Virus record (IMG/VR): IMGVR_UViG_3300007734_000761
Coordinates: 62,001-126,000 of that record
From: a virus
Direction: 5' to 3' (one strand)
Length of the DNA stretch: 64,000 bases
Shown here piece by piece: positions 1,195 through 56,489 of the stretch (within the stretch, counting starts at the first letter, position 1; every line of letters begins with the position of its first letter). The position numbers and the translations under genes are program-made. The notes below the pieces were generated by a model that saw nothing but the letters and a program-made list of their open reading frames with translations, was not told the DNA's origin and ran no database searches.

Positions 1195-1208
1195 ATTAAT
1201 AATATAAA

Positions 1209-1237
1209 AAAAGGCTTGGTAAATACCAAGCCCTTTT
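1209..1237 (-). terminator. Rho-independent terminator after the small fibre gene
   Basis: Stem ggcttggt/accaagcc (1213-1220 and 1225-1232), a 4-base loop, and an A run on the plus strand that becomes the U tract of the minus-strand transcript. It separates the fibre gene from DNA polymerase. Confidence 0.8.
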
Positions 1238-1256
1238 ACTTTTATATTTTTTAAAA

Positions 1257-1871: not shown

Positions 1872-1892
1872 TTTATTAAATTTTTATCAGTA

Positions 1893-1900
1893 ATAAATAT
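1893..1900 (-). promoter_or_regulatory. ATATTTAT late-type motif
   Basis: 21 nt upstream of the 204-residue fibre ATG. Confidence 0.4.
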
Positions 1901-1926
1901 GTAATATTTTTTAAAAAATGAAAGAA

Positions 1927-35391: not shown

Positions 35392-37668
35392 CTAAATATT
35401 TGGTAAAGAATTAAATACAGTTAAAGGAGAAATAGATTTTTCACAAATATGTTGTTTATCTGTTCCTTTCCATATAGGACACCAATCCCAATCTCCAGGA
35501 TCAAAAGTAAAATTAACATTGTTCCAACATGAATTACAAGCATGTTCATTTTGAATTCTTATATTGTTACTTAAAAACTCATGGTCTTTTTGTGAGAAAC
35601 CACTTATCATTACTGTTTGTTTTCCTAAAGCCCAATTTATCCATGACAAACCTGAACTAAGTCCTATTAAAAATTTGGCGTTATATAAAATATCCATAGA
35701 TTCATTTAATGTTTTACCATGAATATTTAAATTACCTTTTATGTTGTATGGTTTACTTGTAAGAGTAACTACAGTGTAACCTAATTCACGCAACATTTTA
35801 GATAATACTACCCAACTATCATAAGGCCATTCTTTACAACCAGTTGTTGACTCAGGAGCTATAACTATATAATCAGCTTTTGTTGATTTAGGCTTTAAAG
35901 TAAAATTTATTCCATAGTTTAATTCTTTAAATTCTAAACCTAAAATATCAGATGCTGTTTTTTGTAAAGGCTGAGTATTTGGATAATTAGGATAATAATC
36001 AAACTTATCCCACTTTCCAGATTCTCCCTTCATCCATCCTATTCTATATACTACATAACATTCTGTAGAATTTCCAGGTTCTATAAATTCAATATCTTTA
36101 TAAGCATCTAAACCTTTAAACCAACTGTTATGGAATGTACTTAAAATTACTTTACAGTTATGTTTTTTAGCAAATTCAACGGCATATGGAGTCCAAGCAA
36201 CTGTGTCACCTATACTTTTTGATTCTAATCCAATTAATACACGTTTATTAGTTAAATTAAATTCATCTACAACACTTCCATTAACTTTAATTTTCCATTT
36301 AGTATAATATTTTCTAGAACATAAAGTCCACATATTATTTTTAATAGTATCTTTATGAATTACATTGTTATTTTCATCTAAAAATTCAATGTCGTATTTT
36401 TCATCAATGTCACCTATGATTTCAACTTTAGGACCATCAATATAACTAATTTTTATTTCATTTTTTTGAGGAATATAAGGATATTTTTTATTAAATTCTA
36501 ATATTGTTTTAAAACCAATTTCACCTATTTTCTCCCAGCTAAATTGTTCTCTTATTTTATTAGAATCTTCAATAGCATTTTTCTTTAAATCACTATTAAA
36601 GTTATATGCTAATCTCATTTTTTTAGATAAATCTTCAAAATCTGGTTCATAATAATTACCTGTATATCCATTAAAATGATTATATGAAGAATTACTTGCT
36701 GGTTTTTCGCCTAATATGTTTACTGGTATTCCTTTACCTTCTGCAAATTCTAATTGACCTGAGCAATTAGAATAAATTGATGGGATCCCACAAGCCATTG
36801 CTTCTATTAAAGGTAAGTTCCATCCTTCTGAACGAGCACAAGACAGAAATACATTACATGATTTTAGTATTTTAATGTATTCTTCTCTTTGAGGAAAATG
36901 AATTATTTTTATTCTTTCATCTTCTAAACCATAATATTTTAGTCTATTTTCTGTAGTTTCTAAATTGTCTCCTGAAAATGGATTATCTATAGAAACAATT
37001 AAGTCAACAGGTTCGTCTTTATCAAATGTTTTAAGAAATGTTTCAATAATTTCTTTAGTTGATTTTCTGTAATCCCATCTTCCTGCTAAAAAGAATTTAA
37101 ATCTACCATCTGAGGTTAACTCATGAGTAGTCTTTTCAGGAAAAAAGATATTAATATCAACTCCTTCAGGAACAACTTTGATTTTATCAGGATCATATCC
37201 TTGAGCAATAGTTACATCACGTTGCCATTTTGAAGGAACCCACATTTCATCAAATTCTTTTAATTTATTAAAGAAATTTTCGGGTTGAAGAGTAGTTTCC
37301 CATACATTATATGCGATTTTAGGTCCTTTATAATCATCGTAAAATAAATGATGGTCAGTTTCACATAAAACAATATTTAAATCTTGACGAAATTCTTTAG
37401 AATTATCAGGATAAATTTTATAATTACTTCTACTTCCATCATTATTCCAAAGAATTTGTTCATATAAAATAGATTTATCTACTTCATTAATATAAGGTTC
37501 ATTATTATGAGGAGTTTCATTATAACCATCCCAACTTTTTCCTATAGTAAAATTTCTAACTTTCAGTTGTAAATGTTTAGATATTTCTCTAAAAAAATCT
37601 CTAGTATGTTGATTATAACCTGTAGTTCCTATATAAGAACCATGTATATATACTTTGGGTTTATTCAT
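35392..37668 (-). CDS. Glycosyltransferase fusion: GT4 domain + TibC-type (BAHT) O-heptosyltransferase domain
   Basis: 758 residues with two catalytic parts. Residues about 1-355 are a GT4 enzyme: YNVWETTLQPENF, VPEGVDINIFFP, FFLAGRWDYRKSTKE and SEGWNLPLIEAMACGIPS with the E-x7-E pattern. Residues about 365-758 match bacterial autotransporter heptosyltransferases: a small strand domain (KVEIIGDIDEKYDIEF, IKNNMWTLCSRKYYTKW), a GT9-like fold (VLIGLESKSIGDTVAW, IGLSSGLSWINWALGK) and the metal finger C711-x2-C714-x15-C730-x11-C742. TibC-family enzymes glycosylate Ser in repeat adhesins. The giant Ser/Thr fibre encoded nearby is the obvious substrate, an inference. Confidence 0.85.
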   Translation of the reverse strand: MNKPKVYIHGSYIGTTGYNQHTRDFFREISKHLQLKVRNFTIGKSWDGYNETPHNNEPYINEVDKSILYEQILWNNDGSRSNYKIYPDNSKEFRQDLNIVLCETDHHLFYDDYKGPKIAYNVWETTLQPENFFNKLKEFDEMWVPSKWQRDVTIAQGYDPDKIKVVPEGVDINIFFPEKTTHELTSDGRFKFFLAGRWDYRKSTKEIIETFLKTFDKDEPVDLIVSIDNPFSGDNLETTENRLKYYGLEDERIKIIHFPQREEYIKILKSCNVFLSCARSEGWNLPLIEAMACGIPSIYSNCSGQLEFAEGKGIPVNILGEKPASNSSYNHFNGYTGNYYEPDFEDLSKKMRLAYNFNSDLKKNAIEDSNKIREQFSWEKIGEIGFKTILEFNKKYPYIPQKNEIKISYIDGPKVEIIGDIDEKYDIEFLDENNNVIHKDTIKNNMWTLCSRKYYTKWKIKVNGSVVDEFNLTNKRVLIGLESKSIGDTVAWTPYAVEFAKKHNCKVILSTFHNSWFKGLDAYKDIEFIEPGNSTECYVVYRIGWMKGESGKWDKFDYYPNYPNTQPLQKTASDILGLEFKELNYGINFTLKPKSTKADYIVIAPESTTGCKEWPYDSWVVLSKMLRELGYTVVTLTSKPYNIKGNLNIHGKTLNESMDILYNAKFLIGLSSGLSWINWALGKQTVMISGFSQKDHEFLSNNIRIQNEHACNSCWNNVNFTFDPGDWDWCPIWKGTDKQHICEKSISPLTVFNSLPNI

Positions 37669-37676
37669 TTATAAAA

Positions 37677-38624
37677 TTAATTATATGTTATAACGTTTCT
37701 AGGTATACTATTAATAATAGTATTGTATTCTATAACTTCATCATTAAATATAACTTTAAAAGAATCAATATTTAAATCAAACCTTTGAGGAATTAAACTT
37801 TCTATATTATAAATTTCTTGATTATTAAGTAATACTTTTAAATTACCATCTTTTATATCATATAAAACAAAAGAAAATTTATCTACCCAATGATTAGATC
37901 CAAAGACAGTTTCTTCTTTAGTGCTAAAAAATATTTTATAATTTTCACTTTGAGAAAAATTAAATAAATTATTATCACACCCATTTATATATGTAATTAA
38001 ATCTTTAACGGGAAATTCTGATTTAGACATAGGAATGTCTTCTAATATAATCTCAATAAAGTCTTCAGCAAAACCATTTAGTCTTATATATTCGTCTTTA
38101 TTTATTTTACTTAAAAACTTTATTAAATTTTCTTTACCAAAATTTATAAAAAGAGGAGATACATTCCATTGATCAAGAGGATCATTAGGATTTATAGCAT
38201 GGTATGTAATATTTGTTTTATTATTTAATATGTCTTGGGTTAGTTTATCTGATACAATTATATCATAAGTAATATGGTAAAAAATATCATAATCATATGT
38301 TAATGCTATTTCTGATAATTTTTTCATTTGATATACTGCTGCCCAACCATAATCATCTATATCTCTATGAAGAATAATTTCTTTATCATATTGATTCTTT
38401 TGTTTCCACCAGAAAGTATTAGCTCTTTCGGGCCAATACAAAAGTGGGTTTTCTTTTGTTTGAAAATAAAAATCAAAGTGTTTAGTTACAGCGGGTTCAA
38501 GAGGAATACAACTATTTACCATTACATCTACTCCTAAAGATTTGAAAGTTTTAGCACCTTCTACAAGAACATGAATTTTTTCTGGAGTATCACAATAAGT
38601 GCTTACTAAAGCTATTTTTTTCAT
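37677..38624 (-). CDS. Putative GT-A-like glycosyltransferase
   Basis: 315 residues from the ATG at 38622-38624 (MKKIALVSTYCDTPEK); an upstream GTG start would overlap the methyltransferase and is rejected. A Rossmann-type first strand is followed by KTFKSLGVDVMVNSCIP, and HRDIDDYG may be a metal-binding Asp-x-Asp site, then YDIFYHITYDIIVSD. The C-terminal 65 residues are a beta segment. It lies one base after the methyltransferase and 8 bases before the GT fusion. The glycosyltransferase call rests on the Asp motif and context. Confidence 0.5.
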   Translation of the reverse strand: MKKIALVSTYCDTPEKIHVLVEGAKTFKSLGVDVMVNSCIPLEPAVTKHFDFYFQTKENPLLYWPERANTFWWKQKNQYDKEIILHRDIDDYGWAAVYQMKKLSEIALTYDYDIFYHITYDIIVSDKLTQDILNNKTNITYHAINPNDPLDQWNVSPLFINFGKENLIKFLSKINKDEYIRLNGFAEDFIEIILEDIPMSKSEFPVKDLITYINGCDNNLFNFSQSENYKIFFSTKEETVFGSNHWVDKFSFVLYDIKDGNLKVLLNNQEIYNIESLIPQRFDLNIDSFKVIFNDEVIEYNTIINSIPRNVITYN

Positions 38625-38625
38625 T

Positions 38626-39210
38626 TTATTTTTGAATAAAACCAATCCCACCCCAATTAGAATCTGCTAAAAACCAAGTTTTTTCACCTTGTAATTCATT
38701 CCAAAAAGTATCAACAAAACATCCTTGAACATGGTGGTTTTCGGTATCTTTAATATCATGAAAACCAATCCATCCCCCAGGCTTAACAAATTCTTTATAC
38801 ATATGATAATCTAATTTTACACCTAAATGTGAATGATCACCATCAATAAATAAAAAGTCTAACTTTCTGTCTCCTATAATAGATTTAACAGAATTATACA
38901 TAGATTCAGCATGAGAATCTCCATCTAAAATATGAACATTTGATCCTAAGCTATAAAGTTTACTATTTCTAGCTTGAATATTAAAAGTATTTTTACCCCA
39001 CGGACCGTGAGCCCAATCTACACTTATTCGAAGACCATCAGGATCTGATACTCTGCTCCAACACACAAAAGTTCCTCCTTGATCTGTTCCTATTTCCATA
39101 AAATTTTTAACGTTTAATTTTTTTACAAATTCAAGAGCATTTTCAATTTCATAAGGATTTTGCATCATTCCTAAATGATAGGCTTCATCAATAATTTCTT
39201 TATTAGTCAT
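38626..39210 (-). CDS. Class I SAM-dependent methyltransferase (CmcI-like)
   Basis: 194 residues. NFMEIGTDQGGTFVCWSRV is the SAM-binding glycine motif, VHILDGDSHAES and LDFLFIDGDHSHLGVKLDY are the acidic strand motifs, and VKPGGWIGFHDI the following strand. The family resembles Methyltransf_24/cephalosporin hydroxylase-like proteins that often modify sugars in surface-polysaccharide clusters. It lies between an FkbM methyltransferase and the GT-A-like protein, so methylation of a transferred sugar is likely. Confidence 0.8.
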   Translation of the reverse strand: MTNKEIIDEAYHLGMMQNPYEIENALEFVKKLNVKNFMEIGTDQGGTFVCWSRVSDPDGLRISVDWAHGPWGKNTFNIQARNSKLYSLGSNVHILDGDSHAESMYNSVKSIIGDRKLDFLFIDGDHSHLGVKLDYHMYKEFVKPGGWIGFHDIKDTENHHVQGCFVDTFWNELQGEKTWFLADSNWGGIGFIQK

Positions 39211-39217
39211 ACTGGTT

Positions 39218-39223
39218 ATTATA
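39218..39223 (-). promoter_or_regulatory. TATAAT-like box before the CmcI-like methyltransferase
   Basis: Reads TTATAATAACCAGTATG on the minus strand; the box ends 7 nt before the ATG. Confidence 0.25.
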
Positions 39224-39234
39224 ATAATTTTATT

Positions 39235-39972
39235 TTATTTTTCCAAATTTAATTTAATATTGTTATAATCTTCAAATTTAGGATGAATTGCTATAAAATC
39301 AGAATTAAATTCAGTATTAGGAATAGGGTAAATTTTATATCCTATATTTTTTAAAAATTTAAATACATCATCTTGATATTCTGAGAGAGTTTCAAATAAT
39401 ATGATTGGATGATTTTGTTTAATTGTTTTTATGGCTCCTTGTAAAGTTTTAAGTTCATAGCCTTCTACATCTATTTTTATAAAATGAGGAGATAAATTAT
39501 AACTATCTAAGGTTTTTATGTTAATGTTATTTATTTCTAAATCATCTTCTAAAGATCTTCCACCATAGTTAATTACATCAACATTTCTATTTCCTTCCCA
39601 ATTAACACTACTGTGTTTCCATAAGTCTCCAAAACTACTTTTTTTATTGGTTTCTCCTAAGCCTACATTAAAACAAGTTATTTTATTATCTAATCCATTT
39701 AAAAATACATTTCCACAAAGTTGATTAAATAATGGGAGTTGAGGTTCAAAAGCATAAACTTGTTTAGAATAAAAACCAAAGTTTACAGTATGAAATCCCA
39801 TATGAGCTCCAATGTCTAAAACTACATAATGAGACTTTAATATAGATTTATATAATTCAATTATTTCTGGTTCCCAGATATGTTCGTTATAGATTCTATA
39901 TCCAATGAAATCTTTAGTATTAGTTAAAAAAGAACCATTATTAGTATTTACTATCCAGCAACCTTCTTTCAT
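39235..39972 (-). CDS. FkbM-family methyltransferase
   Basis: 245 residues. SHYVVLDIGAHMGFHTVNFG is the SAM-binding motif, followed by VYAFEPQLPLFNQL, CFNVGLGETN and FIKIDVEGYELKTLQGA, the FkbM signature. FkbM enzymes O-methylate sugars or small molecules. The gene begins 2 bases after the TPR-methyltransferase ends and continues the modification island. The substrate is not visible from sequence; a fibre-linked sugar is a reasonable inference. Confidence 0.87.
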   Translation of the reverse strand: MKEGCWIVNTNNGSFLTNTKDFIGYRIYNEHIWEPEIIELYKSILKSHYVVLDIGAHMGFHTVNFGFYSKQVYAFEPQLPLFNQLCGNVFLNGLDNKITCFNVGLGETNKKSSFGDLWKHSSVNWEGNRNVDVINYGGRSLEDDLEINNINIKTLDSYNLSPHFIKIDVEGYELKTLQGAIKTIKQNHPIILFETLSEYQDDVFKFLKNIGYKIYPIPNTEFNSDFIAIHPKFEDYNNIKLNLEK

Positions 39973-39973
39973 A

Positions 39974-41194
39974 TTATTTCAACATATAATTATCAGCCTT
40001 TTTAACACTATTAGAATTATCAATCATTAAGTTTAATATTTCTGGGTTAATTAAATCAGGGTGTACCCACCAGTCTTCAAAAGTACTATTTTTATCTGGT
40101 GCGATGTCACCAACAACCATAATATATCCCTGATTAGTTAAAAATTGCCGTGATTTTTCTCTATAAAGTTTAGTGTTGTCAGCATAGTAATCATGTTCAT
40201 ATGTAATTGCAGCAAACTTGTATTTGTCAAAGGGAATTTGTTGTAATACTTTATATGTAATTTCTGCTGGTTCACAGTCTATTTGAAGATAATCTATATT
40301 GTGTTTAAAATTAAGATTATTAAATAATTCAGCATAATTTAATGTTAAAGCATCTTGAGTTAATGCTAAATTATTTCTTATTTTTTGGAATTTTTTTATT
40401 TCTTCGGGATTTATATCTATTGAAACTCCATTCCATTTAAATTCTTTTTCTAATAAATAAGTGTTATTATTTAGTATAGGATCAGCACAACCTATTTCTA
40501 CATATGTTCCTTCTTGTTTACCATCTAACATACTTAAAACAAACATATCTTGATAGGTTTGAGAGTAATTTTTTTCTATAGTGTCTGAATTTGCAAATTT
40601 ATACTTTAAATTTTTATGTTGATCTTTAGTATAAGGTAATTTATAAAATCTTTCACCGTTTAGTCCTGCTAAGTTTTTATGAGCTAATCTAGTATGTTCG
40701 TCTGTTAAATTATAGTTTTTAAGTAAATCTTCAAATAAAAATCTAGCCTCATTACAATTACCAACCCACCAAGTAGTTACAGCTTTTTGAAATTGAGGTA
40801 GAAAATTGTAATAATCTATATTAGTTAATGTTGGTTTATAATTATCTTTATATAATAAAGCCATACAAGCTGCTGTGTATGATTCTCTTCTATTTTGGTC
40901 ATTCTCTAAAAAAGAACTTAAAAAACACCAAGCTTCAGGTCTAGTAGGATTACAGTTAATAGCATTTAAAATAGCATTTTTTACAGATTTTGGTCGTCTT
41001 CCTATATATTTTATACACGATATTATTTTAAGTAAAGCTTCATAAACTAAATCTTTATCATTACTAAATTCAGCAGTTCTTAAATAATAAGTTAAAGCAG
41101 TAGCTTTATGATTTTCTAAATCATATTCATATCCTAACCAAAAATTAACTTCTGGGTCGTAAGGATTATTTATAAATTTTATTAAATTATCCAT
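39974..41194 (-). CDS. TPR-like domain fused to FkbM-type methyltransferase
   Basis: 406 residues. The first 200 are paired helices typical of tetratricopeptide-like repeats (YDPEVNFWLGYEYDLEN, KATALTYYLRTAEFSND, RPEAWCFLSSFLEN). From about residue 208 a methyltransferase follows: NYSQTYQDMFVLSMLDGKQE, GTYVEIGCADPILNNNTYLL, WNGVSIDINPEEIKKF, HNIDYLQIDCEPAEITY. TPR fusions of this sort often position a modifying enzyme on a peptide or fibre substrate. It overlaps the GH130-like gene by 8 bases. Confidence 0.8.
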   Translation of the reverse strand: MDNLIKFINNPYDPEVNFWLGYEYDLENHKATALTYYLRTAEFSNDKDLVYEALLKIISCIKYIGRRPKSVKNAILNAINCNPTRPEAWCFLSSFLENDQNRRESYTAACMALLYKDNYKPTLTNIDYYNFLPQFQKAVTTWWVGNCNEARFLFEDLLKNYNLTDEHTRLAHKNLAGLNGERFYKLPYTKDQHKNLKYKFANSDTIEKNYSQTYQDMFVLSMLDGKQEGTYVEIGCADPILNNNTYLLEKEFKWNGVSIDINPEEIKKFQKIRNNLALTQDALTLNYAELFNNLNFKHNIDYLQIDCEPAEITYKVLQQIPFDKYKFAAITYEHDYYADNTKLYREKSRQFLTNQGYIMVVGDIAPDKNSTFEDWWVHPDLINPEILNLMIDNSNSVKKADNYMLK

Positions 41195-42170
41195 TTATTA
41201 TTTCTTCAAAAACTTTTTCAGGTATAGTTAAGGCAAAAGCAGCATTATCTTGAAATCCAAAAGTAATTACAATATTATTATCTATATTTGTTGCCCCACA
41301 AGCAAATTCTATTTTTGCGGTCATAAAATTAAAACTATCTGATGTTTTAACTATATTTCCTTGTTTATCCCATACTATTATTCTATGAGTATAAACAGCA
41401 TCTTTATTATTATTTTCATTACGCCATAAATCTACTTCATGAATTATTCCTATATCATATTTTTTCCAAGAAATAATTTGAGAATTGCCTCTAAGTTGAT
41501 AAGGAGTATTTATTTTAAATTCTTCACCTTGAAATGTTATTTCACTTTTTCCTGTAATAGGATCTACTTTTACTATTTGAGTTGGATTAGTCCATCTTAT
41601 ATAATGATAAGGCTTATCTAAGATAGGCATCCAATTTTTTTCACAGTAAGAATACTCATCTATAGGGGGTTGGATTCTTAATCTTGAAATTTCTTGAACA
41701 ATATCACCTTTAAATATGATTTGAGATAATTCCATTCTGCCTTCTCCATTAGGAGTAGTATCTCGTCTTACACCAGTTAAATATAATTTATTATCCCATT
41801 TAACTAAACGAGCATCTTCTAGTCCAACAAATTCCCAAATAGGAGTTTTGTCAAAATAACGTGTGTCTACTTTATAAGTTTTTTTTACAGATAAATCATT
41901 ATTCAAAACACATAAATAATTTATTGTTTTTAATCTAGCATCATCTTCTGGGTTTAAATAAGCTAAAGGTCCCCAATGAGACTGATATTTTTGTTCATTA
42001 GGGCAATGATACAAAGAATATTCTACATGTCTTACAACACATAGTATTTCATCATCTATAAAAATAGAAGGATTACATATACCTGTACCTCCTGTTAAAT
42101 CAGCAGATATTTTAAGAGGCATTATAGAACCTCCTTTATCTAAAACTAATTTTACTAAATTATCTATCAT
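41187..42170 (-). CDS. GH130-like five-bladed propeller protein
   Basis: 327 residues. ICNPSIFIDDEILCVVRHVE, FVGLEDARLVKWDNKLYLTG and a later EKNWMPILDKPYHYIRW with EFACGATNIDN give the blade pattern of GH130/GH32-like enzymes, which act on mannosides or related glycans as phosphorylases or hydrolases. The EDAR motif commonly holds catalytic or binding residues in GH130. It overlaps the 2OG oxygenase gene by four bases. A glycan-trimming or glycan-binding role is inferred from the island. Confidence 0.65.
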   Translation of the reverse strand: MIDNLVKLVLDKGGSIMPLKISADLTGGTGICNPSIFIDDEILCVVRHVEYSLYHCPNEQKYQSHWGPLAYLNPEDDARLKTINYLCVLNNDLSVKKTYKVDTRYFDKTPIWEFVGLEDARLVKWDNKLYLTGVRRDTTPNGEGRMELSQIIFKGDIVQEISRLRIQPPIDEYSYCEKNWMPILDKPYHYIRWTNPTQIVKVDPITGKSEITFQGEEFKINTPYQLRGNSQIISWKKYDIGIIHEVDLWRNENNNKDAVYTHRIIVWDKQGNIVKTSDSFNFMTAKIEFACGATNIDNNIVITFGFQDNAAFALTIPEKVFEEIING

Positions 42171-42754
42171 TTGTAAGATTCACCTCCTGCCCAAAGTACT
42201 AAGCTTCTTCTTAAACCTGATGTTAATGGTGTTACTCTATGTAAAATAAAAGATGGAAATAAAACTACAGCTCCTTTTTTACGAGGAACAGCAAACGAAC
42301 CATTTCCAGGATGTAATTCTAAATCTCCACCAACATATTCATTAGGGTCTGATAATTGAACAACTACTGATACTTTTCTGTGGTTAATGCCATCAGGACC
42401 TATGTCTAAGTGCCAATCATAATGACCACCATTACCCTCATATTCTGTGTATTGAATATTATCTATAATTGTATGTAAATTAAATCCCCATAAAGTTTTA
42501 TTAGCTTCAGTAACATAACTAGTTATTCTATCATAAACCCATGCCCATTGTTGTTCATATGATAACCACTTAACATTACTTTTTCTTACTGATTCATTTG
42601 GATCGTTTCCAACAATCTGTGCTTTTTGAAATGAGTATTTTTTAGAATCTTTAATAATTTTATCTACTTCTTCTGAAGTAAATCCGTTTTCAAACCAATA
42701 ATAATTAGTTTGATTGATTTCACGATTAAGGGGAAATATAGGCTTTAATTCCAT
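42167..42754 (-). CDS. 2-oxoglutarate/Fe(II) dioxygenase, prolyl-4-hydroxylase-like (PKHD type)
   Basis: 195 residues. The iron ligands are readable as H125-x-D127 in HYDWHLDIG and H182 in LFPSFILHRVTPL, and the 2-oxoglutarate Arg in SGLRRSLVLW (192/193). VSVVVQLSDPNEYVGGDLEL is the central family strand pair. Relatives hydroxylate proline or other residues in proteins. It is the first gene of the modification island and is encoded 39 bases after the LamG adhesin and next to a collagen-like fibre, which makes peptidyl-proline a sensible candidate substrate. Cyanophage and other phage relatives with unknown substrates are also common. Confidence 0.85.
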   Translation of the reverse strand: MELKPIFPLNREINQTNYYWFENGFTSEEVDKIIKDSKKYSFQKAQIVGNDPNESVRKSNVKWLSYEQQWAWVYDRITSYVTEANKTLWGFNLHTIIDNIQYTEYEGNGGHYDWHLDIGPDGINHRKVSVVVQLSDPNEYVGGDLELHPGNGSFAVPRKKGAVVLFPSFILHRVTPLTSGLRRSLVLWAGGESYK

Positions 42755-42761
42755 AACACAT

Positions 42762-42767
42762 ATTATA
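42762..42767 (-). promoter_or_regulatory. TATAAT-like box before the 2OG oxygenase
   Basis: Reads GTTATAATATGTGTTATG on the minus strand; the box ends 7 nt before the ATG and would start the modification island. Confidence 0.3.
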
Positions 42768-42793
42768 ACATTTATTTTTTAAATAACCAAGTT

Positions 42794-43687
42794 TTATAAA
42801 CCAAATCTTCCTCTTATAGCATCCCAGTTTTGAGCTACTTCTCCAGCAGATAATTCTCTATCGTACATATGGAAAGCAGCAATGTTTCCTGTTAGTCGTC
42901 TAAAATCATATCTAGGGTCACCTCCTAATACTAAAGTATTACCTCCGTTATTTATAATTCCATTTCCTCCACCCGCTGTTCCTGATAAACTACCATTTAA
43001 ATAAATTTTTGTGGCTGTATTACTATATGTACCTACTACTTGATACCAGTTTCCTGCTGTTAAATTAACACCTGTAGTTGCTGCTATAATATTATAACTT
43101 CCTGGAGGATTAGCATTTACATAAAATGAAAGACTTGTAGAACCTAAAGTACCATTTGGATGAAGTAACCACATATTAGATGTTACCCAATCATCTGTAT
43201 TATAAGTTGATTGACCTGCTCCTGCTCCTATAGCCCAAGAACCATTAGCTTTTATCCATATTTCAACTGTAAACTCATTTAAAGGATTAGGACCAGGATT
43301 AGATCCTATATAATCATCAGCACCATCAAAAGTAAAAGATCCACCATTTGTAGGATCCCATCCTCCCCCATTATATAAAGTTCCATCATATGATGGAAAA
43401 CCTCCAGCAACGTCTGTTATACTAGTTCCAAATCCAGGATATGAACCTATAGTAGGCCAAGCATCATAGTTTAATATTAACCCAGATGTTACTATCCATT
43501 GTCCTGTATATCCATACCATTGGTTTGGAGAATAATTAGCACCTCCTGGATTTGTGGGTTGAATGTAACTATAGGCATTTAAAGCACCATAAGTTCCATT
43601 ATAAGCATCTTGTAAATTAAAACTACTACCAGCTCCAAATTCGGAACGAATTTGTCCATATGATATTTGTCCTGAGTAAGGTAACAT
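42794..43687 (-). CDS. Adhesin with LamG/concanavalin-like domain
   Basis: 297 residues. The N-terminal YSGQISYGQIRSEFGAGSSF segment is a virion-attachment type found in phage fibre genes. From about residue 73 a laminin-G-like beta sandwich follows: GGSFTFDGADDYIGSNPG, LNEFTVEIWIKANG, WYQVVGTYSNTATKIYLNGS and NIAAFHMYDRELSAGEV. Such domains bind sugars. The start shares one base with the end of the collagen-like gene, so the two are probably co-expressed as parts of the same fibre network. Confidence 0.75.
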   Translation of the reverse strand: MLPYSGQISYGQIRSEFGAGSSFNLQDAYNGTYGALNAYSYIQPTNPGGANYSPNQWYGYTGQWIVTSGLILNYDAWPTIGSYPGFGTSITDVAGGFPSYDGTLYNGGGWDPTNGGSFTFDGADDYIGSNPGPNPLNEFTVEIWIKANGSWAIGAGAGQSTYNTDDWVTSNMWLLHPNGTLGSTSLSFYVNANPPGSYNIIAATTGVNLTAGNWYQVVGTYSNTATKIYLNGSLSGTAGGGNGIINNGGNTLVLGGDPRYDFRRLTGNIAAFHMYDRELSAGEVAQNWDAIRGRFGL

Positions 43688-46080: not shown

Positions 46081-46086
46081 TTATAT

Positions 46087-46094
46087 ATAAATAT
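46087..46094 (-). promoter_or_regulatory. ATATTTAT late-type motif
   Basis: 6 nt upstream of the collagen-like fibre ATG, in the 14-base gap after the giant fibre gene. Confidence 0.35.
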
Positions 46095-49000: not shown

Positions 49001-52000
49001 TTCCTGATGAACCACTTGAACCTGATGTGCCACTACTACCTGATGAGCCACTTGTTCCGCTTGAACCTGAAGAACCTGATGTACCACTTGATCCACTTGT
49101 TCCACTTGAACCACTAGTACCGGATGAGCCTGAGCTTCCACTTGTACCAGAACTGCCTGAACTGCCTGAAGTTCCAGAAGATCCACTAGTTCCGCTTGAT
49201 CCTGAAGAACCTGATGTACCTGAAGTGCCATTAACACCACTTATACCTGAAGTACCTGATGATCCTGAAGATCCTGATGTACCCGAACTACCAGACGAAC
49301 CTGAAGTGCCTGAAGAACCTGATGTACCTGAGCTACCGCTAGTTCCTGATGAACCACTTGTTCCACTTGAACCTGAACTTCCTGATGTACCCGATGAACC
49401 ACTTGAGCCAGATGTACCTGAACTTCCGCTAGTTCCACTTGAACCTGAAGTTCCTGATGAACCTGACGAGCCACTAGTTCCAGATGAACCTGATGTTCCA
49501 CTTGAACCACTTGTTCCACTAGAGCCTGATGTTCCTGAAGAACCTGAAGAACCACTTGTTCCAGATGAACCACTTGAACCAGATGTTCCTGAACTACCAC
49601 TAGTACCTGATGTACCATTTACTCCGCTTATACCTGATGTTCCACTTGAACCTGATGAACCTGATGTTCCACTAGAACCAGATGATCCTGATGTACCTGA
49701 ACTACCACTTGAGCCAGATGTTCCAGAAGACCCACTAGAACCTGAAGTTCCACTTGAACCTGATGTGCCTGAACTGCCAGAAGTTCCTGAGCTTCCACTT
49801 GTACCTGAAGTTCCTGAGCTACCGCTTGAACCTGAAGTACCTGAACTACCTGATGTTCCAGATGAACCGCTTGAACCTGAAGTGCCCGATGAACCGCTTG
49901 AACCTGATGTTCCGCTTGAACCTGAAGTGCCTGAGCTGCCACTTGAACCTGAGGTTCCGCTTGAACCTGATGTTCCTGAGGTGCCATTTACACCACTTAT
50001 ACCTGATGTACCAGATGAACCTGAAGTACCTGATGAGCCACTTGAACCACTAGTACCAGAAGAACCTGAACTACCTGATGTTCCTGAACTTCCACTAGTT
50101 CCACTTGAACCTGATGTTCCTGAACTTCCTGAAGTACCTGATGATCCCGAAGAACCACTAGTACCAGAAGAACCTGATGAACCTGATGTGCCAGAGCTAC
50201 CTGATGTGCCTGAACTACCTGAAGTACCACTAGAGCCTGATGTTCCTGAAGAACCTGAAGAACCACTTGTGCCTGATGAACCTGAACTTCCACTTGTACC
50301 AGAAGAACCTGATGAACCAGATGTGCCTGATGAACCTGAACTTCCACTTGTACCAGAAGATCCACTAGATCCTGAGGTGCCAGATGAACCTGAAGTGCCA
50401 GAAGAACCACTAGTACCTGATGTACCATTTACTCCGCTTATACCTGATGTTCCTGATGAACCTGATGTTCCTGATGAACCTGATGTTCCTGATGAACCAG
50501 AGCTACCTGAAGTTCCTGATGAACCTGATGTTCCACTAGAACCACTTGTTCCACTTGATCCTGAACTACCACTAGTACCTGAAGATCCACTTGAGCCACT
50601 AGTACCTGAAGAACCTGAAGTACCTGAAGAACCACTAGTACCTGAACTACCACTTGAGCCAGATGTTCCTGAGCTACCTGATGAACCTGATGTACCTGAA
50701 GATCCACTAGTACCTGAAGAGCCTGAAGTACCTGAAGAACCAGAGCTACCTGAAGTACCTGATGAACCTGATGAACCTGAAGTACCACTTGAACCTGATG
50801 TTCCTGAACTGCCAGAAGTACCTGAGCTTCCACTTGAACCTGAAGTTCCTGAACTGCCAGAAGTACCTGAGCTTCCACTTGAACCTGAAGTTCCTGAACT
50901 GCCAGAAGTACCTGAGCTTCCACTTGAACCTGACGTACCACTTGAGCCAGAAGTTCCAGAAGTTCCATTAACTCCACTTATACCTGAAGTGCCTGAAGAT
51001 CCGGATGTACCTGAACTGCCACTTGAGCCAGATGTACCTGAAGAGCCACTTGAACCTGATGTTCCTGATGAACCTGAAGATCCTGAAGTACCTGATGAAC
51101 CGCTTGTTCCACTAGAACCAGATGATCCTGATGTACCTGAACTGCCAGAAGTACCACTTGAACCTGAAGAACCACTTGTTCCACTTGAACCACTTGAACC
51201 TGAGGTGCCACTTGATCCGCTTGTTCCGCTAGAACCCGATGTTCCTGATGAACCACTTGTTCCTGATGAACCGCTTGAACCTGAAGTACCTGATGTACCA
51301 TTTACTCCGCTTATACCTGAAGTACCTGAAGATCCTGATGTACCTGAAGAACCTGATGTTCCTGAAGATCCACTTGAGCCAGATGTTCCTGATGAACCTG
51401 AGCTGCCTGAGGTTCCTGAAGAACCGCTAGTACCGCTTGAACCTGAACTTCCACTTGTTCCACTTGAACCTGATGAACCGGAAGTACCACTACTACCGCT
51501 TGTACCTGATGAACCTGATGATCCTGAAGTACCAGATGAGCCACTTGTTCCTGAAGAACCAGATGTCCCTGAACTTCCTGAAGAACCTGATGTTCCACTT
51601 GAACCACTTGTTCCTGATGAACCAGAGCTGCCTGATGTTCCTGAAGAACCTGAGGTTCCTGATGAGCCACTTGTTCCTGATGAACCTGAAGATCCTGAAG
51701 TACCTGATGAACCGCTTGTTCCTGATGAACCACTAGTACCTGAAGTACCATCTACTCCACTTATACCTGATGTACCACTAGATCCTGAAGATCCTGAAGT
51801 ACCTGATGAACCACTTGAGCCAGATGTTCCTGATGAACCTGATGAACCGCTAGTACCACTTGAACCTGAAGTACCAGATGAACCTGATGTTCCAGAAGAA
51901 CCACTAGTACCTGATGATCCACTAGATCCTGAAGTACCAGATGAACCTGATGAACCTGAGGTTCCTGAAGAACCGCTAGTTCCACTTGAACCTGAGGTTC

Positions 52001-55000
52001 CACTAGAACCCGATGAACCTGAAGTTCCTGAACTTCCTGATGAACCTGATGTGCCGCTTGAACCGCTAGTACCTGATGAACCTGATGTTCCTGATGAGCC
52101 ACTAGTTCCTGAAGAACCGCTTGAACCTGAGGTGCCACTTGAACCACTAGATCCTGAAGTGCCAGATGAACCTGAAGAGCCTGAAGTACCAGATGAACCT
52201 GACGTTCCAGATGAACCTGAAGTTCCAGATGTACCATTTACACCACTTATACCTGATGTACCACTAGATCCTGAAGATCCTGAAGTACCTGATGAACCTG
52301 AAGAACCTGATGTTCCTGAAGAACCTGAGGTTCCTGAAGAACCGCTTGAGCCAGAGGAACCTGAAGATCCGCTTGTTCCACTTGAACCTGAAGACCCAGA
52401 TGTTCCTGATGAACCTGAACTTCCTGAAGTGCCACTTGAACCAGATGTTCCGGATGAACCACTTGTACCACTTGAACCTGAAGAACCTGAGGTTCCAGAT
52501 GAACCTGATGATCCTGAAGTGCCACTACTTCCACTAGTTCCTGAAGAGCCTGAAGTACCAGATGATCCTGAAGATCCTGAAGTTCCACTTGAACCTGAAG
52601 AACCTGAGGTGCCACTTGAACCTGAAGAACCTGAGGTACCACTTGAACCAGAAGTTCCGCTTGAGCCACTAGTACCTGACGAACCGCTAGTGCCTGATGT
52701 ACCATCCACACCACTTATACCTGAAGTACCTGAGCTACCTGAAGTTCCGGATGAACCACTTGAACCAGAAGTTCCGGATGAACCTGAAGTACCACTAGAG
52801 CCTGATGTTCCTGATGAACCACTTGAACCACTTGTTCCGGATGATCCGGAAGTGCCTGATGAACCACTAGTACCTGACGATCCGCTTGAACCAGACGTTC
52901 CTGATGAACCACTTGAACCAGAAGTTCCTGAAGAACCGCTAGTTCCACTTGATCCTGAAGTGCCACTTGAACCTGAAGATCCTGATGTTCCTGATGAACC
53001 ATTTGTTCCACTAGAACCAGATGATCCTGATGTGCCAGATGAACCTGAACTACCACTTGTTCCACTTGAACCTGAAGAACCTGAAGTTCCAGATGAACCT
53101 GATGAGCCACTGGTTCCTGAAGAACCAGAAGTTCCGCTTGAGCCACTAGTACCTGATGTACCGTCAACTCCACTTATACCTGAAGTACCTGAGCTACCGC
53201 TCGTACCTGATGAACCACTTGAGCCAGATGTACCACTAGATCCTGAAGAACCTGATGTTCCACTAGAACCGCTAGTTCCAGATGAGCCTGATGTACCTGA
53301 ACTTCCACTAGTTCCTGATGAACCACTTGAACCACTTGAACCAGAAGTTCCTGAAGAACCACTTGTTCCACTTGAACCACTTGTTCCTGATGAACCTGAC
53401 GTTCCAGATGAACCAGATGTCCCTGAACTTCCTGAAGAACCTGATGTTCCACTTGAACCTGAAGTACCAGATGAACCTGAACTTCCACTAGTTCCTGAAG
53501 AACCAGAAGATCCTGAAGTACCTGATGAACCTGACGTTCCAGATGAACCTGACGTTCCAGATGAACCTGAGCTACCTGCGGTTCCTGAAGAACCACTTGT
53601 CCCAGATGAACCAGAAGTACCTGACGTACCATCAACTCCACTTATACCTGAAGTGCCGCTTGAACCTGAAGTACCAGATGAACCTGAACTTCCGCTAGTT
53701 CCTGATGAACCACTTGAGCCAGATGTACCAGAAGAACCGCTTGTTCCACTTGAACCTGATGTTCCTGAAGAACCTGATGAACCCGAGGTACCTGAACTGC
53801 CACTAGTACCTGATGAACCTGAAGTGCCAGATGAACCTGATGAACCTGAAGTTCCTGAAGAACCTGAGCTGCCTGATGTGCCAGATGAACCTGAGGTTCC
53901 TGAAGAACCACTAGAACCAGACGTTCCTGAGCTGCCTGATGTACCACTAGAACCGCTAGTGCCTGATGAACCTGAAGATCCTGAAGTGCCTGATGAGCCA
54001 CTTGAACCACTTGTACCACTTGAACCTGAAGATCCTGAAGTACCTGATGAACCAGAGGTGCCACTTGAGCCGCTAGTTCCGGATGAACCAGAAGTACCTG
54101 ACGTGCCATCTACTCCACTTATACCTGAAGTACCTGAGCTGCCTGAACTACCTGATGTGCCTGAACTACCAGAGCTGCCTGATGTGCCTGAACTGCCGCT
54201 TGAACCAGATGTACCTGATGAACCACTAGTACCTGAACTACCTGACGTACCACTTGAGCCAGAAGATCCTGAAGTACCAGAACTACCTGACGAACCACTA
54301 GTCCCACTTGAACCTGAACTTCCACTTGTTCCTGATGAACCTGAACTTCCTGACGTACCACTTGAGCCAGAAGTGCCAGAACTACCTGATGTTCCTGATG
54401 AACCACTTGAGCCAGATGTACCTGATGTGCCATCTACTCCACTTATACCTGAAGTACCACTACTTCCTGAGGAACCAGAAGTACCTGATGAACCACTTGT
54501 TCCTGATGAACCTGAAGTGCCACTTGATCCACTAGAACCTGATGTTCCTGAAGAACCTGACGTACCACTTGAGCCGCTTGAACCACTTGTTCCACTTGAA
54601 CCTGATGAACCTGAAGTACCACTAGAACCAGATGTTCCACTACTACCACTTGTACCATCAATCCCAGAAGTACCTGATGAACCACTTGTGCCTGAACTAC
54701 CTGATGTTCCTGATGTTCCGTTTATACCTGAAATTCCAGAAGTTCCTGAGCTGCCACTTGAACCTGAAGTACCACTAGAACCAGAACTACCTGATGTTCC
54801 TGAACTTCCTGAAGAACCTGAGGTTCCACTACTACCACTTGTACCTGATGATCCTGAACTACCTGATGTTCCTGAACTGCCGCTCGTTCCTGATGAACCT
54901 GATGTACCTGAAGATCCTGAAGTGCCTGATGAGCCTGAAGATCCTGAAGTACCGGAACTACCTGAAGTGCCACTTGAACCTGATGTACCACTTGAACCAC

Positions 55001-56489
55001 TAGTGCCTGAGGATCCTGAAGTACCTGATGAGCCACTAGAACCAGAAGTTCCTGAACTACCTGAAGTTCCTGATGAACCTGATGAACCATCAACTCCACT
55101 TAAACCTGAAGTACCCGAAGTACCAGATGAGCCTGATGAGCCACTAGTACCTGATGATCCACTTGTTCCTGAAGAACCTGAACTACCTGACGTGCCACTT
55201 GAGCCAGATGTTCCCGAACTTCCACTTGAACCACTTGTACCTGATGAACCTGAGCTTCCTGAAGTACCAGACGAACCTGATGTTCCTGAACTTCCGCTAG
55301 TTCCACTTGAACCTGAACTTCCACTAGTTCCTGAAGAACCGCTTGAGCCAGATGTTCCCGAACTTCCACTAGTTCCTGAAGAACCGCTTGAGCCAGATGT
55401 ACCTGATGAACCACTTGTTCCACTACTTCCTGAAGTGCCAGATGAGCCTGAGCTACCTGAAGTACCAGATGAACCACTTGTTCCTGAGCTTCCGCTTGTA
55501 CCGGATGAACCTGATGAACCGCTAGTTCCACTTGAACCTGAACTTCCGCTAGTTCCTGAAGAACCACTTGAGCCAGATGTACCTGACGAACCGCTTGTTC
55601 CTGAAGAACCACTTGTTCCACTTGAACCAGATGAACCAGATGTTCCTGAGCTTCCACTTGTTCCACTTGAACCTGAAGTACCTGAAGAACCACTTGAACC
55701 TGAAGTACCTGAAGAACCACTTGAGCCAGATGTGCCTGATGAACCGCTAGTTCCTGATGAACCAGATGTTCCACTTGTTCCGCTTGAACCTGATGTTCCT
55801 GAAGTGCCAGATGAACCGCTAGTACCTGATGAACCACTAGAACCTGATGTTCCACTTGAACCACTTGTACCTGATGAACCAGATGTGCCTGATGAACCTG
55901 AGCTGCCACTTGTACCAGATGAGCCAGATGTTCCTGATGAACCTGACGTGCCTGAACTACCCGAAGTGCCAGAAGAACCAGATGTACCATTTGTACCTGA
56001 AGTACCGTTTGTGCCAGATGTTCCACTAGTTCCTGAAGTTCCTGAACTACCACTAGTTCCTGAGGTTCCTGAACTGCCACTAGTACCTGATGTTCCACTT
56101 GTGCCAGATGTACTAAAATCAGCTATTGGAGCATATGTAAATTGTCCAGAACTAGTATCATATGTTATAAAATAACCTGATGAAGAGTTTTCACTTACTC
56201 CTAAAACTATAAAAGGATTTGAACCTGAAATTAATAATGATCCAGTAATTACAGCTGAACCTGAAAACGGAAATCCTGCTCCTCCACTACCTGAAGAAGC
56301 TATTCCATAACTAACTAATCCTGTTGCTGGATCATATGTTAAATTATATGAGGCTGAAAGATCATTTTCTACTCCAATAAGTGTTAATGGGTTTGAGCCT
56401 GAAATTATTACACTCTCACTAATGCTACCTGTAATAGATAAATCATTAGATAAATACCACCCTAACTGTTCTGGTCTTACTCTTGCCAT
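46095..56489 (-). CDS. Giant Gly-Ser/Thr-Ser triplet fibre (3464 residues) with tail-fibre C-terminal domain
   Basis: Residues 1-126 hold two copies of a beta module (ISGSNPLTLIGVENDLS and ISGSNPFIVLGVSENSS, each followed by a Tyr-rich strand). Residues about 127-3264 are uninterrupted triplets G-T-S or G-S-S, about 1046 of them, with Gly strictly every third position and no proline; modules of the type GISGVNGTSGTSG recur through it. The last 200 residues are a beta-rich stem then a phage fibre domain (WRLRYSVLEGPEIGVYVRGR, IELPYYWTDLV). About two thirds of the repeat is Ser or Thr, a dense potential O-glycosylation surface. It follows the gp15-like gene by one base. Confidence 0.85.
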   Translation of the reverse strand: MARVRPEQLGWYLSNDLSITGSISESVIISGSNPLTLIGVENDLSASYNLTYDPATGLVSYGIASSGSGGAGFPFSGSAVITGSLLISGSNPFIVLGVSENSSSGYFITYDTSSGQFTYAPIADFSTSGTSGTSGTSGSSGTSGTSGSSGTSGTSGTSGTNGTSGTNGTSGSSGTSGSSGTSGSSGTSGSSGTSGSSGSSGTSGSSGTSGSSGTSGSSGSSGTSGSSGTSGTSGSSGTSGTSGSSGTSGSSGTSGSSGSSGTSGSSGSSGTSGSSGTSGSSGTSGSSGSSGTSGSSGTSGSSGTSGSSGSSGTSGSSGSSGTSGSSGSSGTSGSSGTSGSSGTSGSSGSSGTSGSSGTSGSSGTSGSSGSSGTSGSSGTSGSSGSSGTSGSSGSSGTSGSSGTSGSSGTSGSSGSSGTSGSSGSSGTSGSSGTSGSSGSSGTSGSSGTSGSSGSSGTSGTSGLSGVDGSSGSSGTSGSSGTSGSSGSSGTSGSSGTSGSSGTSGSSGTSGSSGTSGSSGSSGTSGSSGTSGSSGTSGSSGTSGSSGSSGTSGSSGTSGSSGSSGTSGSSGSSGTSGSSGSSGTSGISGINGTSGTSGSSGTSGSSGTSGIDGTSGSSGTSGSSGTSGSSGSSGTSGSSGSSGTSGSSGTSGSSGSSGTSGSSGTSGSSGTSGSSGSSGTSGISGVDGTSGTSGSSGSSGTSGSSGTSGSSGTSGSSGSSGTSGSSGSSGTSGSSGSSGTSGSSGSSGTSGSSGTSGSSGTSGSSGSSGTSGSSGSSGTSGSSGSSGTSGISGVDGTSGTSGSSGTSGSSGTSGSSGTSGSSGSSGTSGSSGSSGTSGSSGSSGTSGSSGTSGSSGTSGSSGSSGTSGSSGTSGSSGSSGTSGSSGSSGTSGSSGTSGSSGTSGSSGSSGTSGSSGTSGSSGTSGSSGSSGTSGSSGSSGTSGSSGTSGISGVDGTSGTSGSSGTSGSSGTAGSSGSSGTSGSSGTSGSSGTSGSSGSSGTSGSSGSSGTSGSSGTSGSSGSSGTSGSSGTSGSSGTSGSSGTSGSSGTSGSSGSSGSSGTSGSSGTSGSSGTSGSSGTSGSSGSSGTSGSSGSSGTSGSSGTSGISGVDGTSGTSGSSGTSGSSGTSGSSGSSGTSGSSGSSGTSGSSGSSGTSGSSGSSGTNGSSGTSGSSGSSGTSGSSGTSGSSGTSGSSGSSGTSGSSGSSGTSGSSGTSGSSGTSGSSGSSGTSGSSGTSGSSGTSGSSGSSGTSGSSGTSGISGVDGTSGTSGSSGTSGSSGTSGSSGTSGSSGSSGTSGSSGSSGTSGSSGSSGTSGSSGTSGSSGTSGSSGSSGTSGSSGSSGTSGSSGTSGSSGTSGSSGSSGTSGSSGSSGTSGSSGSSGSSGSSGTSGSSGTSGSSGSSGTSGSSGSSGTSGISGVNGTSGTSGSSGTSGSSGTSGSSGSSGTSGSSGSSGTSGSSGSSGTSGSSGTSGSSGTSGSSGTSGSSGSSGTSGSSGSSGTSGSSGTSGSSGTSGSSGSSGTSGSSGSSGTSGSSGTSGSSGTSGSSGTSGSSGSSGTSGSSGSSGTSGSSGSSGTSGISGVDGTSGTSGSSGTSGSSGTSGSSGSSGTSGSSGTSGSSGTSGSSGSSGTSGSSGTSGSSGSSGTSGSSGTSGSSGTSGSSGSSGTSGSSGTSGSSGSSGTSGSSGSSGTSGSSGTSGSSGSSGTSGSSGSSGTSGSSGTSGSSGTSGISGVNGTSGTSGSSGSSGTSGSSGTSGSSGTSGSSGTSGSSGSSGTSGSSGSSGTSGSSGTSGSSGSSGTSGSSGTSGSSGSSGTSGSSGSSGTSGSSGSSGTSGSSGTSGISGVNGTSGTSGSSGTSGSSGSSGTSGSSGTSGSSGSSGTSGSSGTSGSSGSSGTSGSSGTSGSSGTSGSSGSSGTSGSSGSSGTSGSSGTSGSSGTSGSSGSSGTSGSSGSSGTSGSSGTSGSSGTSGSSGSSGTSGSSGSSGTSGSSGTSGSSGTSGSSGSSGTSGSSGTSGSSGTSGISGVNGTSGTSGSSGTSGSSGTSGSSGSSGTSGSSGSSGTSGSSGSSGTSGSSGSSGTSGSSGSSGTSGSSGTSGSSGTSGSSGTSGSSGSSGTSGSSGSSGTSGSSGTSGSSGTSGSSGTSGSSGSSGTSGSSGSSGTSGSSGTSGISGVNGTSGTSGSSGTSGSSGSSGTSGSSGTSGSSGSSGTSGSSGSSGTSGSSGTSGSSGSSGTSGTSGSSGTSGSSGTSGSSGTSGSSGSSGTSGSSGSSGTSGSSGSSGTSGSSGSSGTSGISGVNGTSGTSGSSGTSGSSGSSGTSGSSGSSGTSGSSGTSGSSGTSGSSGTSGSSGSSGTSGSSGTSGSSGTSGSSGSSGTSGSSGSSGTSGSSGTSGSSGTSGSSGTSGSSGSSGTSGSSGSSGTSGISGVNGTSGTSGSSGSSGTSGSSGTSGSSGSSGTSGSSGSSGTSGSSGTSGSSGTSGSSGSSGTSGSSGSSGTSGSSGSSGTSGSSGSSGTSGSSGTSGSSGTSGSSGSSGTSGSSGSSGTSGSSGTSGSSGSSGTSGSSGTSGSSGTSGSSGTSGSSGTSGISGVNGTSGTSGSSGTSGSSGTSGSSGTSGSSGSSGTSGSSGSSGTSGSSGTSGSSGTSGSSGSSGTSGSSGTSGSSGSSGTSGSSGSSGTSGSSGTSGSSGTSGSSGSSGTSGSSGSSGTSGSSGSSGTSGSSGTSGSSGTSGSSGSSGTSGSSGSSGTSGISGVNGTSGTSGSSGTSGSSGSSGTSGSSGSSGTSGSSGSSGTSGSSGSSGTSGSSGTSGSSGSSGTSGSSGSSGTSGSSGTSGSSGSSGTSGSSGSSGNSGASGTSGTSGSSGTSGSSGTSGSSGSSGTSGSSGSSGTSGSSGTSGSSGTSGSSGSSGTSGSSGSSGTSGSSGTSGSSGTSGSSGSSGTSGSSGSSGTSGSSGSSGTSGISGVNGTSGTSGSSGSSGTSGSSGSSGTSGSSGSSGTSGSSGSSGTSGSSGNSGTSGSSGTSGSSGTSGSSGSSGTSGSSGSSGTSGSSGSSGTSGSSGTSGSSGTSGSSGSSGTSGSSGSSGTSGSSGTSGSSGSSGTSGSSGSSGTSGSSGSSGTSGSSGTSGISGVNSTSGTSGSSGSSGTSGSSGSSGTSGSSGSSGTSGSSGSSGTSGSSGSSGSSGTSGSSGTSGSSGSSGTSGSSGSSGTSGSSGSSGTSGSSGSSGTSGASGASGTSGTSGSSGTSGSSGSSGTSGINGTSGSSGTSGSSGSSGTSGTTTITNNTDNYVLTATGTSTINGEANLTFDGSTLNLNSGANLNLAGGSIDTNGGAIDTGGGNLDLGAGSINPGGAVVGGVLNFDIINGNIKNFDIIHPTKKEPWRLRYSVLEGPEIGVYVRGRLTNNNTIELPYYWTDLVHEDSITVTLTSIGKPQNLYVISANPEKVTIGIEEGNIDCYYVVYGERKDVDKLITEYIRE
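46698..56111 (-). repeat. 9.4 kb nine-base-periodic repeat encoding G-[T/S]-S triplets
   Basis: The protein is almost invariant while the DNA uses many synonymous codons (GGT, GGA, GGC; TCA, AGT, AGC, TCT; ACA, ACT, ACG). About 19 spacer modules (GISGVNG, GISGVDG, GLSGVDG, GINGTSG) divide it into units of roughly 280-630 bases; their plus-strand mark cttatacc occurs near 47143, 47640, 48270, 48758, 49240, 49628, 49998, 50438 and onwards to 54445. Confidence 0.92.

Follow-up and report, generated by a model that had tools for sequence, protein, structure and literature searches.

The window analysed here is a 64-kb stretch of DNA, corresponding to bases 62001-126000 of a 176,311-base IMG/VR virus record. 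Among isolates, its tail tube is most similar to those of Flavobacterium phage immuto (66%) and Microcystis phage Mel-JY01 (59%), and its tail sheath is 46-48% identical to the sheaths of the same two phages. This likeness in both tube and sheath suggests that the window derives from a T4-like phage of Bacteroidota. A search for tRNA genes in the 64-kb window gave none.

Positions 35392-56489 of the minus strand are occupied by three fibre genes and seven enzyme genes, which form one tight run up to the tail sheath gene (33138..35333, minus strand; PF17482 1.5e-11, phrog_23 4.6e-75). From 57720 downward, the genes encode a 409-aa protein, a giant fibre, a collagen-like fibre, a LamG protein, a 2OG oxygenase, a 327-aa protein, three methyltransferases, a GT-A-like protein, a fusion enzyme and the sheath. 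The gaps between the consecutive genes from 57720 to 33138 range from -26 to +58 bases, consistent with the original prediction that the enzymes are contiguous with three fibre genes on one strand. The coordinates, strand and gene order of that prediction are also right. A scan for promoters and terminators gave little above chance and no clear signal interrupting the enzyme genes, and a megablast comparison with 50,697 phage records gave no match to the island. The same record has a second island of sugar enzymes at ~26.6-37.7 kb (L083), far from the fibres, that contains GT2, FkbM, C-methyltransferase, RmlD-like and two GT4 genes.

The giant fibre (46095..56489, minus strand; 3464 aa) matches PHROG tail-fibre families. 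It has 568 GSS and 427 GTS triplets (~995 together), and the 2041 Ser and Thr that we counted within ~3200 residues agree with the roughly 2000 Ser/Thr repeat sites predicted originally. The N-terminal ~125 aa and the C-terminal ~190 aa are unique. Within the repeat, Gly occupies each third residue through a long run (~1045 triplets), as expected of a collagen-like protein, and the Y position is nearly always Ser. The proline fraction, however, is 0.00, while collagen-like proteins are rich in proline or hydroxyproline at X and Y, and we therefore do not assume a triple helix. Units of the form G-I-S-G-V-[ND] interrupt the repeat, mostly at a spacing of 108-180 aa, and this regularity looks as if the fibre had a modular build.

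Despite the triplet in the protein, the giant fibre gene has no DNA tandem repeats with a score of at least 400. Its codons thus appear to have drifted while selection kept the protein repeat, which argues against an assembly artefact. An antisense open frame of 3099 codons (46876-56175, plus strand), rich in repeats of the P-E-P-L-V-P-D type, lies over the giant fibre and is most simply a by-product of repeat codon use.

The second fibre gene (43687..46080, minus strand; 797 aa) encodes a collagen-like protein that consists mainly of [12 protein letters not shown] triplets. Ser or Thr occupies 96 of its Y positions and 27 of its X positions, Lys is absent from Y, and the C-terminal domain is common to fibres of sister phages. 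The third gene (42794..43687, minus strand; 297 aa) encodes a LamG/concanavalin-like fibre or adhesin protein (PF13385 3.7e-22). Both genes were confirmed.

The fusion gene (35392..37668, minus strand; 758 aa) encodes a GT4 domain (residues ~1-395) followed by a TibC domain (~403-755). Residues 403-755 match positions 10-371 of the 374-position TIGR04414 model (2.6e-63; 214.2 bits, cut-off 200), and the C-terminal half also matches TibC in the PDB (4rap, 5e-37). In an AlphaFold model of this part (pLDDT 87.7), the top PDB matches are TibC chains, with a TM score of up to 0.82 over 372 columns. Neither the HMM search nor the structure comparison pointed to an unrelated family. Judged by sequence and model together, the C-terminal half is a true member of the TibC/AAH (BAHT) family. 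The N-terminal half matches PF00534 (1.5e-13), which completes the GT4 plus TibC-like fusion that had been proposed.

The BAHT family is defined by glycosylation of Ser in proteins, and its iron finger takes part in substrate recognition (PMC4358343). In TibC, the essential residues are the base Asp110, Thr226, Lys230 (donor phosphate), Arg286 and Trp305 (sugar binding), while Cys339/342/358/370 bind iron; Arg286 contacts adenine and is required for TibC activity (PMC4358343). The catalytic and donor-site equivalents in the window are D488, T608, K612 and W676. The Cys finger, C711-x2-C714-x15-C730-x11-C742, has exactly the spacing given in the original prediction, and it is predicted to bind iron. 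These features are strongly conserved in an alignment of 91 phage TibC-type domains: Asp in 91/91, Lys in 90/91, Trp in 91/91, Thr or Ser in all, and the Cys finger in 88/91. The position of Arg286, by contrast, is Ser in the window and mostly Val, Thr or Ile in homologues, with Arg in 8/91, and the position of Pro300 is Ser or Gly in the phage domains. Because neither residue is conserved, the donor may not be ADP-heptose. The replacement of Arg286 lowers the case for heptose, although the domain still passes the TIGR04414 cut-off. HldE contains a cytidylyltransferase domain, CTP_transf_like, that would be a sign of the phage's own heptose supply. We found no such domain in the record; the host could still supply the sugar. 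Overall, Ser O-glycosylation is well supported by sequence as the chemistry of the TibC half, and heptose as its sugar is not established.

The GT4 half has the E-x7-E motif of this family at E281/E289. These two residues, together with R197 and K202, are invariant in 35 aligned sequences, where homologues are 58-85% identical to the window's sequence. From its sequence, the GT4 half looks active. Given an intact GT4 beside the TibC half, a two-step glycan is the natural inference.

A scan of viral sequences found at least 140 stretches that encode the fusion, of which we kept 80 loci. In close relatives, the sheath is the fixed right-hand neighbour of the fusion, often with an ORF of ~83 aa between them. 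On the upstream side, some loci have a G-[TS]-S fibre and others a set of collagen-like fibres. Ten dereplicated loci extend at least 12 kb beyond the enzyme in this direction; nine have a G-[TS]-S fibre, and the tenth (L007) begins inside a collagen-like fibre. Some contigs at first seemed to lack the fibre, because contigs or flanks ended inside collagen-like fibres. In all eight that could be extended (G006, G007, G009, G010, G011, G014, G016 and G017), a G-[TS]-S fibre occurs farther upstream. Frequent occurrence of the fusion without a Ser/Thr-rich fibre, which would have spoken against the original prediction, therefore did not appear; the impression of it was an artefact that was gone once contigs were extended, and we rejected it.

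The coupling also holds in reverse. Among the matches listed, we took 50 records of at least ~20 kb that were chosen solely by the G-[TS]-S DNA pattern. TIGR04414 was present in 22 of these, 21 above the cut-off, and in 9/11 of those of at least 100 kb. As a background, 50 records anchored on the tail tube and 26 anchored on the capsid protein were used, again among the matches listed. In this anchored set, full-length TibC occurs in 3/4 fibre-bearing and 2/72 fibre-less records (p 6e-4, a value that ignores phage relatedness). For records of at least 100 kb among the matches listed, the comparison is 9/11 fibre-bearing versus 0/6 fibre-less anchored (p 0.002, likewise ignoring relatedness). 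The fourth fibre-bearing anchored record (G137) lacks full-length TibC and ends just beyond the fibre. Of the two fibre-less records with TibC, one (G117) is a 10.5-kb fragment from a near relative of the window and the other (G079) has a weaker Ser/Thr fibre. The survey covers related phages and fragment contigs, and its DNA pattern misses divergent repeats. Within this scope, the fusion and the G-[TS]-S fibre form the specific, recurrent pair that the original prediction implied.

There are two counter-examples. In one 148-kb record (G027), G-[TS]-S fibres occur without a TIGR04414 match, and the nearest GT-like gene is ~12 kb downstream. The other (G058) has a G-[TS]-S fibre with other GT-like genes instead of TibC. 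Separately, three records without a G-[TS]-S fibre (G084, G119 and G120) encode sub-threshold TibC-like proteins of ~350 aa. Their match breaks off short of the Cys finger, a suggestive contrast to the fibre-bearing phages.

The TibC domains of the survey are 30-51% identical to that of the window. Some stand alone (~360-420 aa); others are joined to GT4 (~700-780 aa) or belong to chains of 1200-1500 aa. That the pair recurs across such different TibC proteins argues for a functional tie. In distant phages, a G-[TS]-S fibre accompanies a TibC gene in surroundings other than the T4-like sheath region. Among bacterial genome contigs, 4/17 candidates encode a relative, all of them in metagenome bins, and 2/3 of those with a TibC domain also show a G-[TS]-S fibre. 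Two contigs from bins labelled bacterium and Bacteroidetes (L383, L385) have the fusion or a relative together with a G-[TS]-S fibre, and are probably phage contigs binned with their hosts.

A cultured isolate, Microcystis phage Mel-JY01 (PP395634), carries the fusion-fibre pair, judging from its deposited sequence. Its enzyme is a GT4-insert-TibC protein of 1227 aa that was deposited as 'methyltransferase FkbM'. Just upstream is a G-[TS]-S fibre frame (bases 2-3049, plus strand) that is open at the start of the record. The deposited annotation of this region (PP395634.1, L089, 1-3052) consists of two antisense hypothetical proteins and a short frame.

We consider it likely that the locus is a phage-encoded module for fibre maturation, in which the fusion O-glycosylates the phage's own G-[TS]-S fibre. 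During infection, the TibC half would use a nucleotide sugar as donor to glycosylate Ser, and perhaps Thr, of the repeats, and the GT4 half would probably add a second sugar. We infer the acceptor and the order of the sugars from the enzyme's family and its genomic partner. The TibC-type domain, its intact active site and the recurrent pairing all support the original prediction that the phage glycosylates its own fibre. The heptose of TibC/AAH enzymes, cited in that prediction, has fared less well as the sugar, given the replaced Arg286 and the lack of a CTP_transf_like domain in the record.

The TibC half might instead glycosylate another phage or host protein, such as the collagen-like fibre, the LamG adhesin or a host adhesin, with the closeness to the G-[TS]-S fibre reflecting hitch-hiking in a tail module. 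The collagen-like fibre of the window has many Thr among its Ser/Thr Y positions, and a bacterial collagen-like protein, BclA, is glycosylated (PMC8968730). However, the enzyme is kept in G-[TS]-S loci that have no collagen-like fibre (e.g. L059, L073 and L053), and in distant phages the TibC gene and the fibre are paired away from a T4-like sheath. We regard a different acceptor as highly unlikely, and return to modification of the G-[TS]-S fibre.

Other enzymes of the island could contribute to such a modification. The gene beside the fusion (37677..38651, minus strand; 324 aa) encodes a probable GT-A-fold glycosyltransferase. It has no sequence match in profile libraries or the PDB, and the GT-A-like protein of the original prediction was recovered by its predicted fold: the model (pLDDT 86) gives weak matches to GT-A enzymes (LH3, GlcAT-P, SpsA and a PBCV-1 capsid GT; best E 1.3e-4, TM ~0.4-0.5). 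Of the three methyltransferases predicted, two are solid, namely a class I enzyme (38626..39210, minus strand; 194 aa; PF13578, Methyltransf_24, 6.9e-15) and an FkbM-family enzyme (39235..39972, minus strand; 245 aa; TIGR01444 9.9e-25). The third (39974..41194, minus strand; 406 aa) is weakly FkbM-like (PF05050 0.00045, just below the cut-off), and its N-terminal TPR-like part is marginal. The GT-A-like enzyme and the methyltransferases may lengthen the glycan or cap it; methylation of the fibre is guesswork.

Next to the third methyltransferase is a conserved 327-aa protein (41187..42170, minus strand), which is followed by the TPR-FkbM gene in every locus seen. We tried GH130 as an identity for this protein and rejected it (Pfam E 0.055; 12.8 bits versus 26; no meaningful PDB relative), so the GH130-like propeller of the original prediction is not supported. 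The glycan trimming attributed to it is likewise unsupported, as the 327-aa and TPR-FkbM genes form a two-gene cassette (39974-42170) that also adjoins the sheath in phages in which we saw no TibC (L251, L271 and L275).

Several cargo genes thus have no assigned function, which would fit enzymes that are a passing genomic assemblage or partly decayed, with no role at the fibre. But the catalytic residues of both halves of the fusion are invariant among the 35 aligned sequences, the frames are intact and the fusion occurs in at least 140 viral stretches. We find such an assemblage barely credible.

The glycosyltransferases and methyltransferases could alternatively alter glycans on the host surface (LPS O-chain or capsule) to prevent superinfection, and lie beside the fibres as part of a general host-interaction cluster. 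A cluster of this kind was described in pelagimyophages and cyanomyophages, where a variable island of fibres and glycosyltransferases occupies the same T4-like structural region and, in the accessible part of the paper, the authors infer modification of the host O-chain (PMC7029224). The TibC-type fusion, the repeat fibres and their pairing are not reported in that part. Consistent with action on the host, the glycosyltransferase and methyltransferase cargo around the fusion differs from phage to phage, and the second sugar-enzyme island lies far from the fibres. Yet the fusion itself is constant, and it tracks the type of fibre sequence, not the phage lineage. Glycosylation of Ser in proteins defines its family, whose iron finger helps to recognise the substrate. 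Other cargo enzymes likewise track fibre residues, as described below. Remodelling of the host surface is therefore, in our estimate, unlikely. We favour the fibre as the target because the constant member of the island belongs to a protein-acting family and its presence follows the fibre sequence.

Such tracking is seen in a set of 25 dereplicated loci with visible Gly-X-Y fibres. The 2OG-Fe(II) oxygenase of the window (42167..42754, minus strand; 195 aa; PF13640 8.4e-15, phrog_61 1.7e-38) is PKHD/prolyl-hydroxylase-like. Its nearest solved relatives are PKHD/PiuC enzymes (PKHD-type hydroxylase 3dkq, 1e-10), and activity on peptidyl-proline is predicted. An oxygenase of this type occurs in 11/11 loci with Pro-bearing collagen-like fibres and in 2/14 others, both of which have some Pro (p 2e-5, ignoring relatedness). 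It tracks Pro-bearing collagen-like fibres, not G-[TS]-S ones. The prolyl-hydroxylase-like enzyme of the original prediction is confirmed as a 2OG-Fe(II) oxygenase. It probably hydroxylates the Pro-bearing collagen-like fibre.

Sister phages whose fibres have Lys in the Y position encode a further enzyme, a 775-aa chain with a GT4 domain, a COLGALT1-like domain (3.3e-12) and an LH3-like lysyl-hydroxylase domain (8e-26). The chain matches a solved procollagen lysyl hydroxylase and glycosyltransferase, 6ax6 (7.7e-25), which we take to be the mimivirus enzyme. It occurs in 9/11 of the Pro-collagen loci and 0/14 others. It is absent from the window phage and from one other (L005), both of which have no Lys in fibre Y positions. 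The match is imperfect, as Lys makes up only ~1% of Y positions in one locus (L056) and its near copies, which nevertheless encode the chain. The chain adjoins collagen-like fibres at L068:5541-7865 and in relatives (L042, L051 and L056). From its domains, it looks like animal-style collagen modification in a bacteriophage.

These observations could reflect a widespread class among aquatic phages, with a modular kit matched to the residues of Gly-X-Y fibres: TibC-GT4 for Ser/Thr, the LH3/COLGALT1-like chain for Lys and the 2OG oxygenase for Pro. Such a kit would give densely glycosylated, partly hydroxylated collagen-like rods. We judge the case for this broader proposal to be about evenly balanced. 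As for the effect on the fibre, a dense glycan would stiffen or shield the long proline-free Gly-X-Y rod, or alter its binding. In a vent worm, glycosylated Thr can stabilise a proline-poor collagen helix. By analogy, a Gly-X-Y chain without proline might become a stiff rod once glycosylated.

Separate precedents exist for glycosylation of phage virions, for TibC-type enzymes and for collagen-like proteins with sugars. Like the TibC/AAH systems (TIGR04414; PDB 4rap and 4rb4), the phage enzyme has a whole TibC domain with the Asp, the Thr/Lys/Trp donor site, the four-Cys finger and the predicted fold, and it adjoins a Ser-rich repeat protein. It differs in being phage-borne and fused to GT4, in lacking conserved Arg286 and Pro300, and in having a Gly-X-Y fibre as its partner instead of a beta-helix autotransporter. 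TibC-family enzymes assemble into a dodecameric ring and heptosylate Ser of an autotransporter, whereas the acceptor proposed here is a phage fibre.

In mycobacteriophages, glycans occur on the capsid and tail tube (Freeman et al. 2023, cited in PMC12619734). The glycans are likewise on virion proteins, but these are the capsid and tail tube, while the acceptor proposed here is a fibre. To our knowledge, no TibC family takes part in mycobacteriophage virion glycosylation. Bacterial collagen-like proteins of the BclA type have a Gly-X-Y repeat with sugars (PMC8968730). BclA is a bacterial spore protein; the phage repeat, by contrast, is proline-free. The enzymes that glycosylate BclA are not of the TibC family, as far as we know. 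The lysine-modifying chain, which in the sister phages lies beside collagen-like fibres, resembles mimivirus L230 and animal LH3/COLGALT1 in its domains, but it is fused to an extra GT4.

Our search covered mainly open-access papers. Within this scope, we found no report of a GT4-fused TibC-family enzyme in a phage with a Ser/Thr Gly-X-Y fibre as its partner, and nothing that links either TibC or lysyl hydroxylase to phage fibres. We know of no earlier TibC-family system for phage fibre glycosylation. If our reading is correct, the locus would represent such a system, and both its enzyme and its acceptor repeat would be defined, with a cultured phage as an example. It would explain why aquatic phages have such long Ser/Thr fibres without proline, and would offer a second reading for glycosyltransferases that are now taken as modifiers of the host surface. 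Together with the lysine-modifying fusion of the sister phages, it would bring animal-like collagen modification chemistry into the viruses of bacteria.
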